From NCBI RefSeq assembly GCF_023256255.1, contig NZ_JAGDXD010000028.1, forward strand, positions 1 to 64,000: a stretch of DNA of 64,000 nt, in the 5' to 3' direction. A model generated the notes under the pieces. That model was not told the origin of the DNA. It did not search any database and saw nothing but the letters and a program-made list of their open reading frames with translations. The stretch is from Caldivirga sp. GTDB taxonomy: Archaea; Thermoproteota; Thermoprotei; Thermoproteales; Thermocladiaceae. How positions within the stretch are numbered: the first letter of the stretch is position 1; every line of letters begins with the position of its first letter. Position numbers and translations under genes: made by a program. Shown here in pieces: positions 20,460-27,558 of the stretch.

Positions 20460-21164
20460 ATGGATAGTGTTATTGTTGAGGAGTTCAGTGGTGGTGTGGA
20501 GAAATCAAAGGTTTACTCAATGGTTAATGGAAAGCTCATTGAATTATCCTTTAATAGAATGGTTAGTACTGGCTTAATTGAGTTTAAGATAGCAACGATA
20601 ACTCCAGTTAATGAGGAGGAGTTTTCAATAATAGCCCCAGCGGTTGGTTCACTTGGCTTTTACGCTGATTACGTTAAGGATTCGAAAATGGCTGTACTCA
20701 TACCATCAGTCACGCTTAAGGGCATTAAGAGCATCAATGATTTAAAGGTTCTGCTAAATGCGTTAAGTGAACTTATAGAGGAGATGTCATATATGACTAA
20801 TACTCCTATTTCAAATATAGAGATTGCGTTAATGCTGAGTGACAAGGGTTGGTTAGTAAGCAGTAATAATAATGAGGCTTATAAGGTAATTAGGATTAAT
20901 GATATTGCCTCAACAATATCAATAAACTTGAGTGGTGGATTAACTGTTGGTTCGGCTAACGTAAGCATTAGTGTGATTGGGAAAATAAGGAATAGTGACT
21001 GTGTGGTTAAGGGTATCTCTGAACTTGGCTTAAACAATATAGAGAACTACGGTTACGTGATACTGGCTAGTGGATCAATAAGAACTCTTGGCTTATTAAC
21101 AATACTAACTGATAAGCTTGAAAACGCCGTGACTAGGGTGATTAATGAGTGCAGCCGCCTTTAG
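20460..21164 (+). CDS. Hypothetical protein paired with a membrane-anchored regulator
   Basis: 234 aa, no family recognised. It is soluble in appearance, rich in Ser, Asn, Ile and Val, with alternating strand-like segments (for example ISINLSGGLTVGSANVSISVIGKI) suggesting a mostly beta protein, plus one helix around LKVLLNALSELIEEM. TATA element about 28 nt upstream. The next gene, a membrane-anchored winged-helix protein, overlaps its end by 16 nt, so the two are surely co-expressed and possibly act together as sensor and regulator (inference). Confidence 0.65.
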   Translation: MDSVIVEEFSGGVEKSKVYSMVNGKLIELSFNRMVSTGLIEFKIATITPVNEEEFSIIAPAVGSLGFYADYVKDSKMAVLIPSVTLKGIKSINDLKVLLNALSELIEEMSYMTNTPISNIEIALMLSDKGWLVSSNNNEAYKVIRINDIASTISINLSGGLTVGSANVSISVIGKIRNSDCVVKGISELGLNNIENYGYVILASGSIRTLGLLTILTDKLENAVTRVINECSRL

Positions 21165-21565
21165 GTAACGTGGTTATAGTAATCGTAATGATGGAGGCGT
21201 TTCTAATAATGGTGTTGGGCTACATGATGTATGATGTTAAGGCTAGGTTAACTAAAGGAATGATGAAGATAATTAACGAGGGTATTAAGATTGATTCCTC
21301 ATCTACCAATGATAGTAGACCGAGGCTGAACACTGATGAGGTTAAGGTACTTAAGTACCTTATGAGTAGAGGCAAGCCTGTTATTCAATCAGTTATAGGT
21401 AAGGAACTTAATATACCTAAGTCAACCCTCTTTAGGATAATTAAGAGACTGAGTGAACTAGGGTTAATTAATGTTGAGAAGAAGGGTAAGTATAATTATG
21501 TTTATATTCAGAGGACTCAAGACGTCTTAAGTATACTTAAGTCAATTAATGAGGACTCCTCCTAG
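21149..21565 (+). CDS. Membrane-anchored winged-helix transcription regulator
   Basis: 138 aa. One hydrophobic helix at the N terminus (VVIVIVMMEAFLIMVLGYMMY, about 8-28) is followed by a linker and a C-terminal winged helix: LNTDEVKVLKYLMSRGKPVIQSVIGKELNIPKSTLFRIIKRLSELGLINVEKKGKYNYVYI in two runs of helix and wing. The start is GTG 21149, overlapping the upstream gene by 16 nt; ATG at 21188 is an alternative that would keep most of the helix. Membrane-tethered regulators of this kind are common in crenarchaea. Confidence 0.75.
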   Translation: MQPPLGNVVIVIVMMEAFLIMVLGYMMYDVKARLTKGMMKIINEGIKIDSSSTNDSRPRLNTDEVKVLKYLMSRGKPVIQSVIGKELNIPKSTLFRIIKRLSELGLINVEKKGKYNYVYIQRTQDVLSILKSINEDSS

Positions 21566-21627: not shown

Positions 21628-22521
21628 TTAGTAAAGACTCCTACCCCTAGCGTAACCAAGCATATCTCTAATATACCTATACAGTAGTGGATCCATCTCC
21701 CCCTTCTCACTCACCCTGAGTAGTGCCATTATAAACCACTTCCTAACCTCATCACTGACCTTAGATAATTTATCAGCAACGTAAAGCGGCATTGGGTAAT
21801 TTTCCCTACTCATCATTAGCGATACGGTCTTCAATACATCTGGGTTCTTGAGTACATTCTCACCGGCCTCAACGTAAATTGGGGGACTACCACCATTAAC
21901 CTGCATGTAGAATCCCACTACCCCACTACGTATATTAACTGGTGTTGTGATTAGAATGGAATCCATACCCTTCTCTCTGAACCTTTCAAATAGGGTGAAG
22001 AATAATGCTACCTCATTTATGGGCTTCTCAATACCCATTAACCTACCGGTAATGCGGTTAATACGCACCTCCTTCGTGAAGGATAACACGTAATGCCCAG
22101 TGCTTAATGCGGTATTAATTAATTCATTTAACTTACTTGATTCCCCATCATTAGCCACTAATGGTCCATCCATTAGGACTAATTCATGGTCCTTCAGTAA
22201 CTCAATTGCCGAATTAAACTCCTCAAGTTTAGCGTTCTCCTCAAGGGACTCAACGTTATCAACCACCCTTACAATGAATCTGCTTCTTGAATCGCTTGGA
22301 AGCACTACGATTGCGACATTTATTAAACCAATAATTACCCCAAGGTACTTTATGGGTATGAAGCCTGAATCCACTGCTGCAGTACTGTAATCGCTTGGAT
22401 TACCATTAATCTCAATTATGATTCCATCAGTATCCATATTCTCAAGCTCCACCCCTATCTGAGCTAATTCAACTTCACTTAACTTATATACACCGCTTAT
22501 TAAGGATTCAAGGGTATACAA
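21628..22521 (-). CDS. NurA-domain nuclease
   Basis: 297-aa protein with NurA-family features: AAVDSGF with Asp51, an acidic helix with Glu101/Glu107, LVLMDGPL with Asp118, and the C-terminal phrase YPMPLYVADKLSKVS typical of NurA. NurA proteins are 5'-3' exonucleases/endonucleases acting on DNA ends, normally with the HerA translocase. Start is TTG 22521: a full GGAGGTGA site stands 7 nt before it and it overlaps the upstream gene by 14 nt. Last gene of a three-gene operon whose ATPase is not HerA. Catalytic residues appear intact. Confidence 0.78.
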   Translation of the reverse strand: MYTLESLISGVYKLSEVELAQIGVELENMDTDGIIIEINGNPSDYSTAAVDSGFIPIKYLGVIIGLINVAIVVLPSDSRSRFIVRVVDNVESLEENAKLEEFNSAIELLKDHELVLMDGPLVANDGESSKLNELINTALSTGHYVLSFTKEVRINRITGRLMGIEKPINEVALFFTLFERFREKGMDSILITTPVNIRSGVVGFYMQVNGGSPPIYVEAGENVLKNPDVLKTVSLMMSRENYPMPLYVADKLSKVSDEVRKWFIMALLRVSEKGEMDPLLYRYIRDMLGYARGRSLY

Positions 22522-23095
22522 TCTTAGTCACCTCCTCTATTAGGTTCCTTAACCTCTCCTTATCTATTAATATTCCTGAATTAACCACCCCCAGGGTTTC
22601 AAGAATCATTAAAGTCTCTTCATCTAAGCCCGAGGCATCACCAATCTTAAGCATCCTAACTAGGCCCATTAGCGTCTTAGATAAGCCCATTGTACTCCTC
22701 TCCGTAAGTATTTTTCTACTAATCCTGCTAACTGCTCCGTCACTAAGCGTACTTTTCCATAGTGCAGTAATATCCCTCACTAGTATCTCAGCCATGGGTC
22801 CCATGTACACTTTAGGTATGTAACCTGTTATGACTATGCCATTGTCAGTTACCTTAATGCAGTCCGTATTGCAGCATTTAATGGACTTAAGTGTTACATT
22901 ACCGTAAACCACAGCCCCACCCCAATTACAGTCAATAGTCCTAATGATTATGGGTGCCTTAATGTCTTGGCATTGCTTAAAGCATATTACTACATCAGCG
23001 TGACCATTGTAGCTATCTAAGCACCTAATGAGTCTACATAGCCTACTCCCTGAGTCACCATCCACAGCTACTATTATTGGGGCTTCATGAGACAT
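22508..23095 (-). CDS. Cysteine-rich protein of the ATPase/NurA operon
   Basis: 195 aa from ATG 23095; the frame is open to 23134 but the internal ATG overlaps the ATPase stop by 11 nt and is preceded by GGTGG, so I prefer it. No family recognised. The N-terminal third starts IIVAVDGDSGSRLCRLIRC and holds eight cysteines in about 60 residues (CxxxC, CCxxxC), suggesting metal binding or disulphides; the C-terminal half is helical. VAVDGD recalls the aspartate motif of NurA-like or RNase H-like folds, but this is only a resemblance. Tightly coupled to both neighbours. Confidence 0.65.
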   Translation of the reverse strand: MSHEAPIIVAVDGDSGSRLCRLIRCLDSYNGHADVVICFKQCQDIKAPIIIRTIDCNWGGAVVYGNVTLKSIKCCNTDCIKVTDNGIVITGYIPKVYMGPMAEILVRDITALWKSTLSDGAVSRISRKILTERSTMGLSKTLMGLVRMLKIGDASGLDEETLMILETLGVVNSGILIDKERLRNLIEEVTKIVYP

Positions 23096-26000
23096 AGCGC
23101 TTCTCCACCAGTCTAGCCCGCCATAATGCTTCAAGATAATTGATAACCTCCCTTGATTCCATGCCTAACTCCCTAGCCATAATCACTTCATCAAGGCCAA
23201 CATTAGGTCCAATTGAGGCAATGTACCTTAGTAGGTTTAATGGTACATTAAGTTTACTGGATAATTCACTAAGCTTACTAGTTACAATATTATTGACAGC
23301 GACTAATTCATCGATTCCCGCCTTAAGTTCACTCAAGTTAACTGAATCCAGGTTCGGTTTCTTAAAGTCCTGGTTAAGCAACCCCTTATGCCTAAGCCAA
23401 TTAACTGAGTTATACACCTCAATAGCCTTAGTCTTAACCTTACTAATAACATCAACCAGCCTCCCCCTAGCCTCCTTAACCCTACTCTCGTATTCACTTA
23501 GGACTATCTCTAAGTCATCTAAGGCATCCTTACTCAGCAGTTCAATAATTGAATCAACTATATTATCCTCCGGGGGTGCTTCCTCATTACTGCCAATTAA
23601 TTGAAAGGCCTTAGTCAATATTAGCGATATGATTGCGTGCTCATGAGCGTAATGCAGTATTGAGGCTGAAAGCTCCAGTTCCCTCCTAAGCCTATTAACC
23701 TCCTTGGAGACGTTATCGCTTAGAGATTTTAAAGCCTCATAGGCCTTATCAATGCTTAAACCATTTAAGTTACTTACCGCCCTCATTACTGTTTCCTGAA
23801 GTTCCTTAACCTTTCCCCTCACAACGTCCTTGATAGCGTTGTCAACGTTAACCTCAGGGTTACTTAATGAATTCACAAGGGAATTTAAGCTACTTATAGT
23901 GCTCTTCATCTCACTTATTAACTTACCCTCGCTTTCCTTAACCTCGCTTACCTTGTCTTGAAGGGCCATTAGGCTTAGGTTAACCTTAGCCAGTCTCTTT
24001 AATTCATCCTCAGTAGGGTTCCTTATTACAGTCGCAAGTAGCCTACATTCCTCCTCGAGTTCCTTAACCTCTCCTTGAAGTGCACTGAAGCCTGTTTGAA
24101 GAGTTAAGTTAATGTTGTCAATGCTTATTGAGACATTCCCATTGAATAACTTAGCCAACTCCCTCACCCTAGAGCATACATCATTAACAGCATCATTGAA
24201 CCCTCCATTAATGGTTACGATGTATTTCCCATTATGTTCAAAAAGTAGTCCCCTTAACTTCATTAGATCAATTAGATCATGTTCCCTGAAGTCTCTCCAT
24301 AATTGAACAGGGAAAAGCCCCCTTATCACGTACTCCAGTTCCTTCTCATCAATTGGCTTACTAAGGTTACTCAGGTAATTCACTAGGATTGTCTCAACCC
24401 TAGATATGCATGGCTTATCCCCACACTTGAAGACTGTAGGCGTTGACTGGTCAACAGTACCTTCAACCCAACTCTTAACCACGCTCCTAATTGCATCCCT
24501 CTTACCCTCCCTCCTTCTAGGTAAGCCTAATGTGTATTGGAGTAGTTGATTCCTCAGTGAATCTCTAAAGGCACTAACCTTCTCAATGAACCTCGTGGCG
24601 CTTTGAACCTGGCTGGCGTATTCACTAGGTATCTTACTGAACTTAGATAAGACGTAGAGACCTATTAATACCCCTCTTAATTCCTCTATGTTATCTGAAC
24701 CATAATTAATTAGTAGGATTCTTTGGGATGAATCGTAAACCCCACACCACTTCATGTTTAAGTTACCTTGAAGCTGACTTGTTAATAATTGATCATTAAC
24801 AACGAGCCCTATTAAACCATCAACATGCTTAACCTGCCCATTAATCCTAACCCCACAGTTAGCCGCTATGCCTAATGCTCCATCAGGGCTTGTAAGCACT
24901 ACATAGGCTAACCTGGCGTCTAATGCATTATCAGCAATGACTACTCTTAAACCGTCTTGGGTTTTAATAGGCTCACCCTTAGTTATCATGCTTATTATCC
25001 TACCGGCTACGTCAATTGGCTTAGCGGCAGCTACCTGCTTTATGAAGCTGCTTAATTCATCAAGGCTGCTTGCCTCCGGGTTAGCTAAGCCAAGTAGCTT
25101 ATCGTGGATACTCTTCTTCAGTATGTAAGCATCATGACTGATGAAACCCTCAGTACTGGCTTCCGCTGGAAGCACAACTATTAACTTAATACCCTTATCC
25201 ATGGGTATTGTATAGTATGAGCCATACTCTATGGATAGATTCCTTAAATCATCAGCAACTATGGGTGGTTTACCGTAGCTCATCCTCACGTTATTAATGG
25301 CGCGTAATTCACTGGCATTCTCTGGATTAACCTCGACAACCTTAACTCTCTCAACAAGTCCTGTTAATTCAACGCTTGGATTAGCCTTAACAGGTATGCC
25401 GGATAAGGCTATGTGCATTAAGTCATCACCGTAAGTCTTCAATTCATTGAGAAGGTTAAGGTTAATGTACTTACCTAATTCGGATGTTAGGAAACGTAGC
25501 ATTAAATCCACGCTTAACTGCCCATTATTCTCAATGATCACTTCAAACAACTTGGAGGTTAACTTAATTAGATTCCTAGGTGAGGCTTGACCATTCTCCA
25601 TCCTCCTGGCTATGAGGTAAATTAAGGATAATGACTCTCTATTGAATGGGTGTAGGGGGTTAAGTCTACCCTCCTTAATTGCCTTAAGTCTCTCAGGGTT
25701 TGAGTAGGATAGGAGCCTATTCTCAATAATTGCTTCATAAAGCCAGTAGGGTATCCTATCATCAATGACAACCTCCTTGAAAACCCTACCTCTAGCAATG
25801 TCAAACACGTCGGGTACGTTATTCTTCAATATACTGTAGTATAGCTGAGGGGTGAAGGCTGCTATTATCATTACCCTGCCTAGGTTGCTTGGCTTCAAGT
25901 TAAGCAGTGAGGCGTAGCTCCTAGGTTCTAAAATAGCCCTAATTAACCCAGTAACCTGCATTATTGAATTCTTAACATCACTACTCACCCCACCTGATAT

Positions 26001-26378
26001 TGAGACTGCCCTGGTCAATTCATCAGCCTCATCAAACATCAGAATCATCGGCCTACTGGAGTCCCTATTCATGAACCTGTTGATTAAGTAATCCTTAATG
26101 TTCATGCTTAAGCTGAGGGCAGCCCTAATCACATCAACATTAAGTCCCCTAAGCCTCTCCTCAACATCATCAAGTAGATCCGACTTACCGAAACCATATG
26201 GGCCCACTACCACTAGCAGTATGTTATCATTACCCCTTAGGAAGACTTCAATAGCCCTCATAACTTCACTAACCTCCCTCTCAAGCCCCATGGTAACGTA
26301 ACGCCTAGCCACAGGTGGAAGTCCACTTGGGTTAAGCGGCCTATCCACGAAGCCTAATGCCTCATAAGGATTCCCCAT
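23085..26378 (-). CDS. Large P-loop ATPase with coiled coil and C-terminal winged helix
   Basis: 1097 aa. The N-terminus (NPYEALGFVDRPLNP) is followed by an AAA-type P-loop domain: Walker A GPYGFGKS (59-66) and Walker B MILMFDEADE (111-120). The middle has no recognised domain. Residues about 760-1000 are heptad-like and rich in Leu, Lys, Glu and Ser, predicted coiled coil. The last 70 residues look like a winged helix (LNVPLNLLRYIASIG...EVINYLEALWRARLVEKRYVS). Architecture recalls ORC/STAND-like or BREX BrxC-like ATPases and SMC-like scaffolds, none of which I can assign. First gene of the operon with the Cys-rich and NurA proteins. Likely DNA-associated motor or switch. Confidence 0.8.
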   Translation of the reverse strand: MGNPYEALGFVDRPLNPSGLPPVARRYVTMGLEREVSEVMRAIEVFLRGNDNILLVVVGPYGFGKSDLLDDVEERLRGLNVDVIRAALSLSMNIKDYLINRFMNRDSSRPMILMFDEADELTRAVSISGGVSSDVKNSIMQVTGLIRAILEPRSYASLLNLKPSNLGRVMIIAAFTPQLYYSILKNNVPDVFDIARGRVFKEVVIDDRIPYWLYEAIIENRLLSYSNPERLKAIKEGRLNPLHPFNRESLSLIYLIARRMENGQASPRNLIKLTSKLFEVIIENNGQLSVDLMLRFLTSELGKYINLNLLNELKTYGDDLMHIALSGIPVKANPSVELTGLVERVKVVEVNPENASELRAINNVRMSYGKPPIVADDLRNLSIEYGSYYTIPMDKGIKLIVVLPAEASTEGFISHDAYILKKSIHDKLLGLANPEASSLDELSSFIKQVAAAKPIDVAGRIISMITKGEPIKTQDGLRVVIADNALDARLAYVVLTSPDGALGIAANCGVRINGQVKHVDGLIGLVVNDQLLTSQLQGNLNMKWCGVYDSSQRILLINYGSDNIEELRGVLIGLYVLSKFSKIPSEYASQVQSATRFIEKVSAFRDSLRNQLLQYTLGLPRRREGKRDAIRSVVKSWVEGTVDQSTPTVFKCGDKPCISRVETILVNYLSNLSKPIDEKELEYVIRGLFPVQLWRDFREHDLIDLMKLRGLLFEHNGKYIVTINGGFNDAVNDVCSRVRELAKLFNGNVSISIDNINLTLQTGFSALQGEVKELEEECRLLATVIRNPTEDELKRLAKVNLSLMALQDKVSEVKESEGKLISEMKSTISSLNSLVNSLSNPEVNVDNAIKDVVRGKVKELQETVMRAVSNLNGLSIDKAYEALKSLSDNVSKEVNRLRRELELSASILHYAHEHAIISLILTKAFQLIGSNEEAPPEDNIVDSIIELLSKDALDDLEIVLSEYESRVKEARGRLVDVISKVKTKAIEVYNSVNWLRHKGLLNQDFKKPNLDSVNLSELKAGIDELVAVNNIVTSKLSELSSKLNVPLNLLRYIASIGPNVGLDEVIMARELGMESREVINYLEALWRARLVEKRYVS

Positions 26379-26444
26379 CTTAAGGTAGAGTTAAGGCTCC
26401 CCTAAATTAAGGGAACAGTTAAATTATTGCGTGCTTAAGGCTCC

Positions 26445-27558
26445 TCAACCATTAATCTTCAAGTAATTCGCCAGTAATGGATCAACGATCCTGTACCTAC
26501 CCCACCCAGGCTTCTCAACAAGCCCCTTAGCAATTAATTCAGTTAAAACCCTATTAGGTTTCCTAACACTTGACTTATTTAACCTAGTGCCCACGGCTAA
26601 CGCCTTAAGGAGCCTAAGTTGATTAGGGTTAAGGTTACTTAACTCGGATTCTATAACGAATTTTACTGATGGGCCACTTAGTATGAACCACTTATCGCAT
26701 CCTCCCTCAACCATTCTTAAGCCAGCTAGGTTAAGCCAAGCTGGGAAACCACCCGTCAACTCATAAGCCTTCTCTAAGGTATCCACTGTACAATCTACTC
26801 CACTCTCCATAAGCCCCTCCCTTAGAAATGATATACTGGTGTCCTTGTTAAAGGGCTTCAGTTCAATAACCCTAAAGAAGGCGAAGAAGGGTTGATCATT
26901 CCTACTCAGTAGTTCCCTCATAATATCCACCTCAGACCCAGCAATCACGTACTCAACCATACTGTGGGATTGTCAGATCCTCCTCATGACCCTTAATACG
27001 TCAGGATATGGTTGCTTAAGGAACCTAACTTGCTGGAATTCATCAAGCGCTATCACCGTGTTCCTACCTAACTTCTTAGCAATTCTCTGAGGTATTTGAA
27101 GAAACTCATCCAATGTCTTAATCATGTTAACCTTATAATCAACCACATCAGTGTAAAGCTTAACATAGAAGTCTAATCCATCAAACCTAAGCCCAGTCTC
27201 CCTAACGGCGTCGAGTAATGTATGCAACATATCCCTAATGTTAATTAGGCTTACTTTCAACCTAAGCCTAATTGATTTCCTAACGGCCTCCGTAAGAATA
27301 CTACTAACGTAAAGGTCGAGAAACTGCCTAATACCCCTAACCCCCTCTAGAGACACCTTAACCTTAACAGTTACTGTATTTTTCATCATCAATTAGTCTA
27401 AAGGCAACATTAATCAATGATGACTTCCCCATTCTCCTATAGCCTATAACTGCAATTGGTTACCTAACCTTAAAGGAATTAATAAGTGCTTTAAGCTCTT
27501 CCTTCCTATCATAGAACTCCAATGGATCAAGGATCTCTCTACCAAAGATGAATTTCAT
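26445..27558 (-). pseudogene. Broken archaeal AAA ATPase, second copy
   Basis: From ATG 27558 the frame reads MKFIFGREILDPLEFYDRKEELK, then meets an in-frame TAA just before the Walker A region (PIAVIGYRRMGKSSL). Near 27390 the frame shifts; the next block (KVSLEGVRGIRQFL ... NTVIALDEFQQVRF) holds Walker B and ends at 26973; a further shift near 26965 leads to VEYVIAGSEV and the winged-helix C-terminus ending at 26445. At least three lesions, so an inactive member of the PF01637 archaeal ATPase family. Between TATA (TATTTAA) and ATG is a 10-bp palindrome CCGGTACCGG. Confidence 0.85.

Follow-up and report, generated by a model that had tools for sequence, protein, structure and literature searches.

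A NurA-family nuclease operon of Thermoproteales with an Orc1/Cdc6-type AAA+ ATPase as the candidate partner in place of HerA

The NurA enzymes characterised so far act as the nuclease partners of HerA. In the NurA-HerA complex, a NurA dimer is stably bound to a hexameric ATPase (PMC4641729), and residues D58, E116 and D133 are critical in the Sulfolobus nuclease (PMC4351679; see also PMC4641729). A table of Pyrobaculum genes published in 2012 (Bernick et al., PMC3396285) gives, for each species, three NurA paralogues that all have a HerA, and the nurA-csm6-herA cluster and other nurA-herA pairs described there hold paralogues, in the same genomes, of the nuclease reported here. All three being HerA-paired, this nuclease was apparently not included in that table. 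A search of the open full-text literature, with subscription papers outside its scope, found no description of the operon that encodes it.

This operon lies on the minus strand, at 26378-21628, of a Caldivirga sp. contig (NZ_JAGDXD010000028.1, assembly GCF_023256255.1). Positions follow the forward-strand numbering of the window, that is, the whole 64,000-nt stretch analysed (1 to 64,000 of the contig). It consists of three overlapping genes, encoding an ATPase, a small protein and a NurA-family nuclease designated NurA_d. The features, with the evidence for each, are as follows.

23085..26378, minus strand: AAA+ ATPase, 1097 aa (ORF, Pfam, orthologue alignment, AlphaFold2 model, Foldseek)
22508..23095, minus strand: small protein, 195 aa, ATG at 23095 (ORF, orthologue alignment, model)
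21628..22521, minus strand: NurA-family nuclease NurA_d, 297 aa, TTG start at 22521 (Pfam, orthologues, tree)
22528..22535, minus strand: Shine-Dalgarno GGAGGTGA of the nuclease gene, 6 nt 5' of the TTG and within the small gene (sequence)
26398..26414, minus strand: imperfect palindrome TCCCTTAATTTAGGGGA, putative operator, just upstream of the ATPase start
26419..26424, minus strand: TATA-like A/T-rich box (AATTTAA region), putative promoter, about 45 nt before the ATG

The ORFs confirmed the three genes of the original prediction and their overlaps (11 nt between the ATPase and small genes, 14 nt between the small and nurA_d genes), and the full Shine-Dalgarno that it had placed at the TTG start was found. 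This Shine-Dalgarno was full in two Caldivirga and partial in two others. The 11-nt overlap was kept in Caldivirga, Thermocladium, Pyrobaculum and Thermoproteus, not in Vulcanisaeta, and was the only translational feature of the operon to show wide conservation. It was likewise confirmed that none of HerA, Mre11 and Rad50 is encoded near the operon; the Rad50 of this Caldivirga genome is encoded elsewhere (G000:C43).

The operon resembles the HerA-NurA resection complex (with Mre11-Rad50) in that it encodes a NurA-fold nuclease with the D58/E116/D133 triad and an operonic partner ATPase, and in being a core gene set of hyperthermophilic archaea. Unlike HerA-NurA, its partner ATPase would be an Orc1/Cdc6-type AAA+ protein with a coiled coil and winged helices, not an enzyme of the HerA/FtsK type; it also has an extra small gene and no link to Mre11-Rad50. 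On balance, we lean slightly towards the view that the operon encodes an order-specific core DNA-processing machine, in which NurA_d works with this dedicated AAA+ ATPase instead of HerA.

The nuclease matched PF09376 (NurA) over residues 46-255 (E=2e-12; 47.5 bits versus a cut-off of 21), and the NurA_d profile matched the solved Sulfolobus NurA 2ygk (E 1e-6). D51, E101 and D118 were invariant in all 26 orthologues and aligned with D58, E116 and D133 of Sulfolobus NurA, so that, judged from these residues, NurA_d should be active, in agreement with the predicted NurA-type nuclease with intact acidic residues. K150 was also invariant; not placed by the alignment, it probably corresponds, by motif only, to Sulfolobus K202.

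The same Caldivirga genome contains four NurA genes, and each of the other three adjoins a HerA-family gene (DUF87/HerA_C). Four NurA subfamilies occur in Thermoproteales, of which a, b and c lie mostly beside HerA and NurA_d never does; a, b and c recurred in five further genomes, with HerA mostly adjacent. The neighbours of the nurA_d gene were the small protein and the AAA+ ATPase genes in all loci examined. In a sister order, HerA lay next to each of the eight NurA genes examined. In the phylogenetic tree, NurA_d formed its own clade apart from the three HerA-paired clades (support 97/95), a monophyly that was neither recovered nor contradicted when two very divergent rows were included. 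NurA_a, NurA_b and NurA_c fit the three paired groups of Bernick et al. (PMC3396285), whereas NurA_d is a fourth clade without a HerA partner gene. The NurA linked to Rad50 in Thermoproteaceae is NurA_c; NurA_b matches the CRISPR-linked nurA-csm6-herA cluster (PMC3396285).

As for the ATPase, the P-loop, long coiled coil and C-terminal winged helix noted earlier were upheld by the family, profile and structural evidence. The N-terminal AAA+ module contains Walker A (G59-S66), Walker B (D116-E120), a sensor-1-like T176, R198 and a sensor-2-like R268, the roles of the last three (sensor 1, arginine finger and sensor 2, respectively) being assigned by position. G62, G64, K65, D116, E117, T176, R198 and R268 were invariant in 25 orthologues; by this sequence evidence the protein would be oligomeric and ATP hydrolysing, as expected for an AAA+ ATPase with such residues. 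Beyond this module lie a middle domain with a winged-helix-like part (∼660-720), the coiled coil (∼763-1043) and the C-terminal winged helix (∼1045-1097). The AlphaFold2 model (pLDDT 85; pTM 0.56) was matched by Foldseek to Orc1/Cdc6 and ORC chains with a probability of 1.00 (E 3e-5 to 1e-3), the best single-chain solved match being Orc1/Cdc6 (E 3e-5; TM-score by target, 0.45 to 0.48), in a comparison that covers mainly the AAA+ module. Dynein ranked above Orc1/Cdc6, but through multi-AAA+/coiled-coil chains with low TM-scores. As modelled, the ATPase is thus an Orc1/Cdc6-type AAA+ protein carrying a coiled coil and winged helices. It has the AAA+ module with lid and the winged helices in common with initiator-type AAA+ proteins, among them the archaeal Orc1/Cdc6 initiators; unlike Orc1/Cdc6, it is a 1097-aa protein with a coiled coil and no Orc1/Cdc6 sequence match, is specific to the order and is encoded in an operon with a nuclease.

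HerA, BREX and Rad50 identities of the ATPase were tested and rejected. No DUF87/HerA_C or HAS-barrel Pfam match was found in it, and hhalign of its profile against 11 HerA proteins gave a probability of 11%, in accordance with the original prediction that it is not HerA. The Pfam matches (AAA, ATPase_2, AAA_16 and BrxC/D) were all below threshold. BrxC, the match bearing on BREX, reached 18.3 bits versus a cut-off of 22.2 (E 0.001) over only ∼65 residues of the P-loop region, and BrxC/BrxD matches at E≤0.01 were obtained with 7 of the 25 orthologues. No PglZ or other BREX partner was found: the PglZ search yielded only matches of 55 to 80 residues in frames of roughly 370 to 410 aa, in 13 of 29 genomes, and no match in ten genomes of genus g6, all of them carriers of the ATPase. 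The protein is therefore neither a HerA nor a BREX component with standard partners, either of which would have spoken against a new module.

The long coiled coil, the winged helices and the core distribution in a single order would also suit an ATPase acting mainly in chromosome organisation or segregation, its AAA+ head bearing Rad50/SMC-like arms and the nuclease serving as an accessory for processing. We consider this very improbable: the ATPase showed no family match to Rad50/SMC (ABC-type head, zinc hook), its fold being that of the AAA+ Orc1/Cdc6 proteins, and in Pyrobaculum and Thermoproteus the proteins are ∼950 aa long with a shorter coiled coil, which indicates that arm length is not tightly constrained.

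The distribution of the operon was uniform within the order. A single-sequence search found the ATPase in 41 of 45 Thermoproteales genomes, practically always in single copy, and it was present in all 25 genomes at least 90% complete (Caldivirga, Vulcanisaeta, Thermocladium, Pyrobaculum, Thermoproteus and uncultured lineages); the four genomes without a match were all 54 to 88% complete. With a profile of the 25 orthologues, no full-length ATPase was found outside Thermoproteales among 299 genomes of the phylum, where the matches were P-loop, coiled-coil or winged-helix scraps only, which may or may not reflect distant homology. The small protein was likewise restricted to the order. A peptide-pattern scan of one genome per species (84,980 species) returned 25 loci, of which all those named to genus belonged to Caldivirga, Thermocladium, Vulcanisaeta, Pyrobaculum or Thermoproteus. 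The neighbourhood survey called for by the original prediction showed that the three genes do co-occur elsewhere, in the order ATPase-small-NurA, in 34 of 37 ATPase loci from several families; of the remaining three, one is rearranged (G033), one unresolved (G008) and one at a contig end (G007). Frameshifts in the ATPase gene occurred in several draft genomes and in no complete genome of the same genus.

Between Caldivirga species, dN/dS was 0.08 to 0.15 for the ATPase, approximately as low as for a neighbouring metabolic gene, 0.15 to 0.38 for the small protein and 0.17 to 0.29 for NurA. Since orthologues stand in the same order across Thermoproteales with dN/dS of 0.08 to 0.38, the arrangement is more than chance, and the operon belongs to the core gene set of Thermoproteales, where it is under purifying selection and vertically inherited. 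Its flanks varied by genus, and the tested neighbours with a family match were mostly metabolic, with no functional hint or defence-island gene among them. That the operon is universally retained, in one copy and with neighbours that differ by genus, is consistent with a housekeeping role in DNA processing. The values of 0.15 to 0.38 argue against it, NurA_d and the small protein evolving fast for a housekeeping machine.

These data bear on the proposal that the operon is an accessory locus or defence module, neither part of which was supported. No relatives of the ATPase were found in a viral contig collection, and PADLOC defence families gave no match over the protein body, only coiled-coil, P-loop or winged-helix scraps; with the universal, single-copy, vertical distribution, this led us to reject an accessory or defence locus of that kind. 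A fixed innate immunity, in which the ATPase would sense foreign or aberrant DNA and license NurA_d to degrade it, has in its favour an ATPase-plus-nuclease layout reminiscent of defence systems, the CRISPR linkage of the sister NurA_b in the same order (PMC3396285) and the sub-cut-off BrxC/BrxD similarity described above. Set against the same distribution, the lack of defence-island genes among the tested neighbours and the absence of viral relatives, it seems to us a distinctly unlikely explanation. Most likely, the pathway would be chromosomal (processing of DNA ends, forks or recombination intermediates) and not antiviral.

The ATPase is not HerA, the genes co-occur and, among the four subfamilies, only NurA_d never adjoins HerA; taken together, a separate machine is the best reading. 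In such a machine, by analogy with characterised NurA, NurA_d would be a dimer. The ATPase would oligomerise via its AAA+ module, its winged helices and coiled-coil arm would reach DNA, the presumed substrate, and ATP would be used to load or position NurA_d there. The small protein, co-translated with the other two, would be an obligate subunit or adaptor. We thus retain the earlier proposal that the ATPase replaces HerA in a separate nuclease machine, with the qualification that the complex of the three proteins, and the ATPase as its loader or motor driving the nuclease, are postulated by analogy.

The main rival to this machine is that NurA_d is partnered in trans by an orphan HerA, as an ordinary NurA-HerA system, the ATPase and small protein being co-expressed for a linked, different step (loading, regulation or segregation). 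Of 29 genomes of the order, 27 carry a HerA with no NurA beside it, and none of 23 others of the class does (E≤1e-60). This matches the distribution of the operon, so that such a HerA could serve NurA_d in trans; Bernick et al. also list an unmatched herA group (PMC3396285). In this Caldivirga genome, the orphan HerA lies at G000:C55:28496-30067 (L216:4997-6571) and belongs to its own HerA clade; in six genomes examined, it was adjoined by no NurA and by no generally shared gene. Against action in trans, the orphan HerA was syntenic with NurA_d in no genome examined, and elsewhere in the order paired NurA and HerA genes are for the most part neighbours. The HerA-contact residues I295 and F300 of Sulfolobus NurA are not kept in NurA_d, yet the Rad50-linked NurA_c lacks them too, and their loss is therefore not diagnostic of HerA independence. 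We regard action in trans as rather unlikely, if the most serious of the alternatives. For the broader claim, that NurA_d, the AAA+ ATPase and a small subunit form a fourth, HerA-independent NurA machine, universal in the order, probably essential, arisen with the order and hitherto undescribed, we see the case as evenly poised. Such a machine would add one more order-specific component to core DNA metabolism (see PMC8998557) and would offer an order-wide marker for an unassigned DNA-processing step, with a defined set of three proteins that can be expressed and assayed together.

The small protein comprises an N-terminal beta part and a conserved C-terminal helical part, with invariant E132, R133 and Y194 and a motif ERRxxKxSxTL. 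Its structure model (pLDDT 89) found no fold match in the PDB (best E 0.55), and no known family matched it. The eight cysteines reported for it were present in Caldivirga, but they are not a family feature, the number falling to five in Thermocladium, two in Vulcanisaeta and zero in Pyrobaculum and Thermoproteus; because they vanish in most orthologues, a Cys-rich zinc protein was rejected. In Thermoproteus sp. CP80, a 371-aa frame that seemed to fuse the small and NurA genes proved to be an ORF-calling artefact, the small gene being intact in another frame.

Upstream of the ATPase gene, a block of ∼30 nt (window 26398-26430) was nearly invariant in five Caldivirga genomes. Within it, the TATA-like box was conserved in all five, and the palindrome TCCCTTAATTTAGGGGA was identical in four, with one exact copy per genome, at the operon only. 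A regulon was rejected: no further exact site occurred in the four genomes, and sites with two mismatches were at about the control level. A dedicated regulator or autoregulation of the putative promoter is possible. In Vulcanisaeta and Pyrobaculum, the corresponding region is occupied by other A/T-rich sequences.

The flanking dead ATPase genes of the original prediction turned out to be fragments of a single degraded ATPase_2 gene at ∼26445-27558 (fragments 26445-26960 and 26973-27392, start near 27558), whose intact counterpart (368 aa) occupies this position in the close relative G002 (L040:8824-9930). The whole window (1-64000) contained no tRNA gene, nor any Rfam match that reached the gathering threshold.

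Two of the HerA-paired loci of this Caldivirga genome were also inspected. At L061:6333-9845 (G000:C39), NurA_b and HerA_b are accompanied by an adjacent 258-aa gene, and this is probably the known CRISPR-linked nurA-csm6-herA cluster. At L060:803-4952 (G000:C59), genes for a VWA-domain protein, HerA and NurA_a are consecutive, and the corresponding place in G002 (L129) holds a gene of equal length. In the window, a 234-aa protein and a 138-aa MarR/TrmB-like HTH protein are encoded at 20460-21565, convergent with the operon; this pair, not seen there in other genera, stood beside the operon in all five Caldivirga genomes examined.
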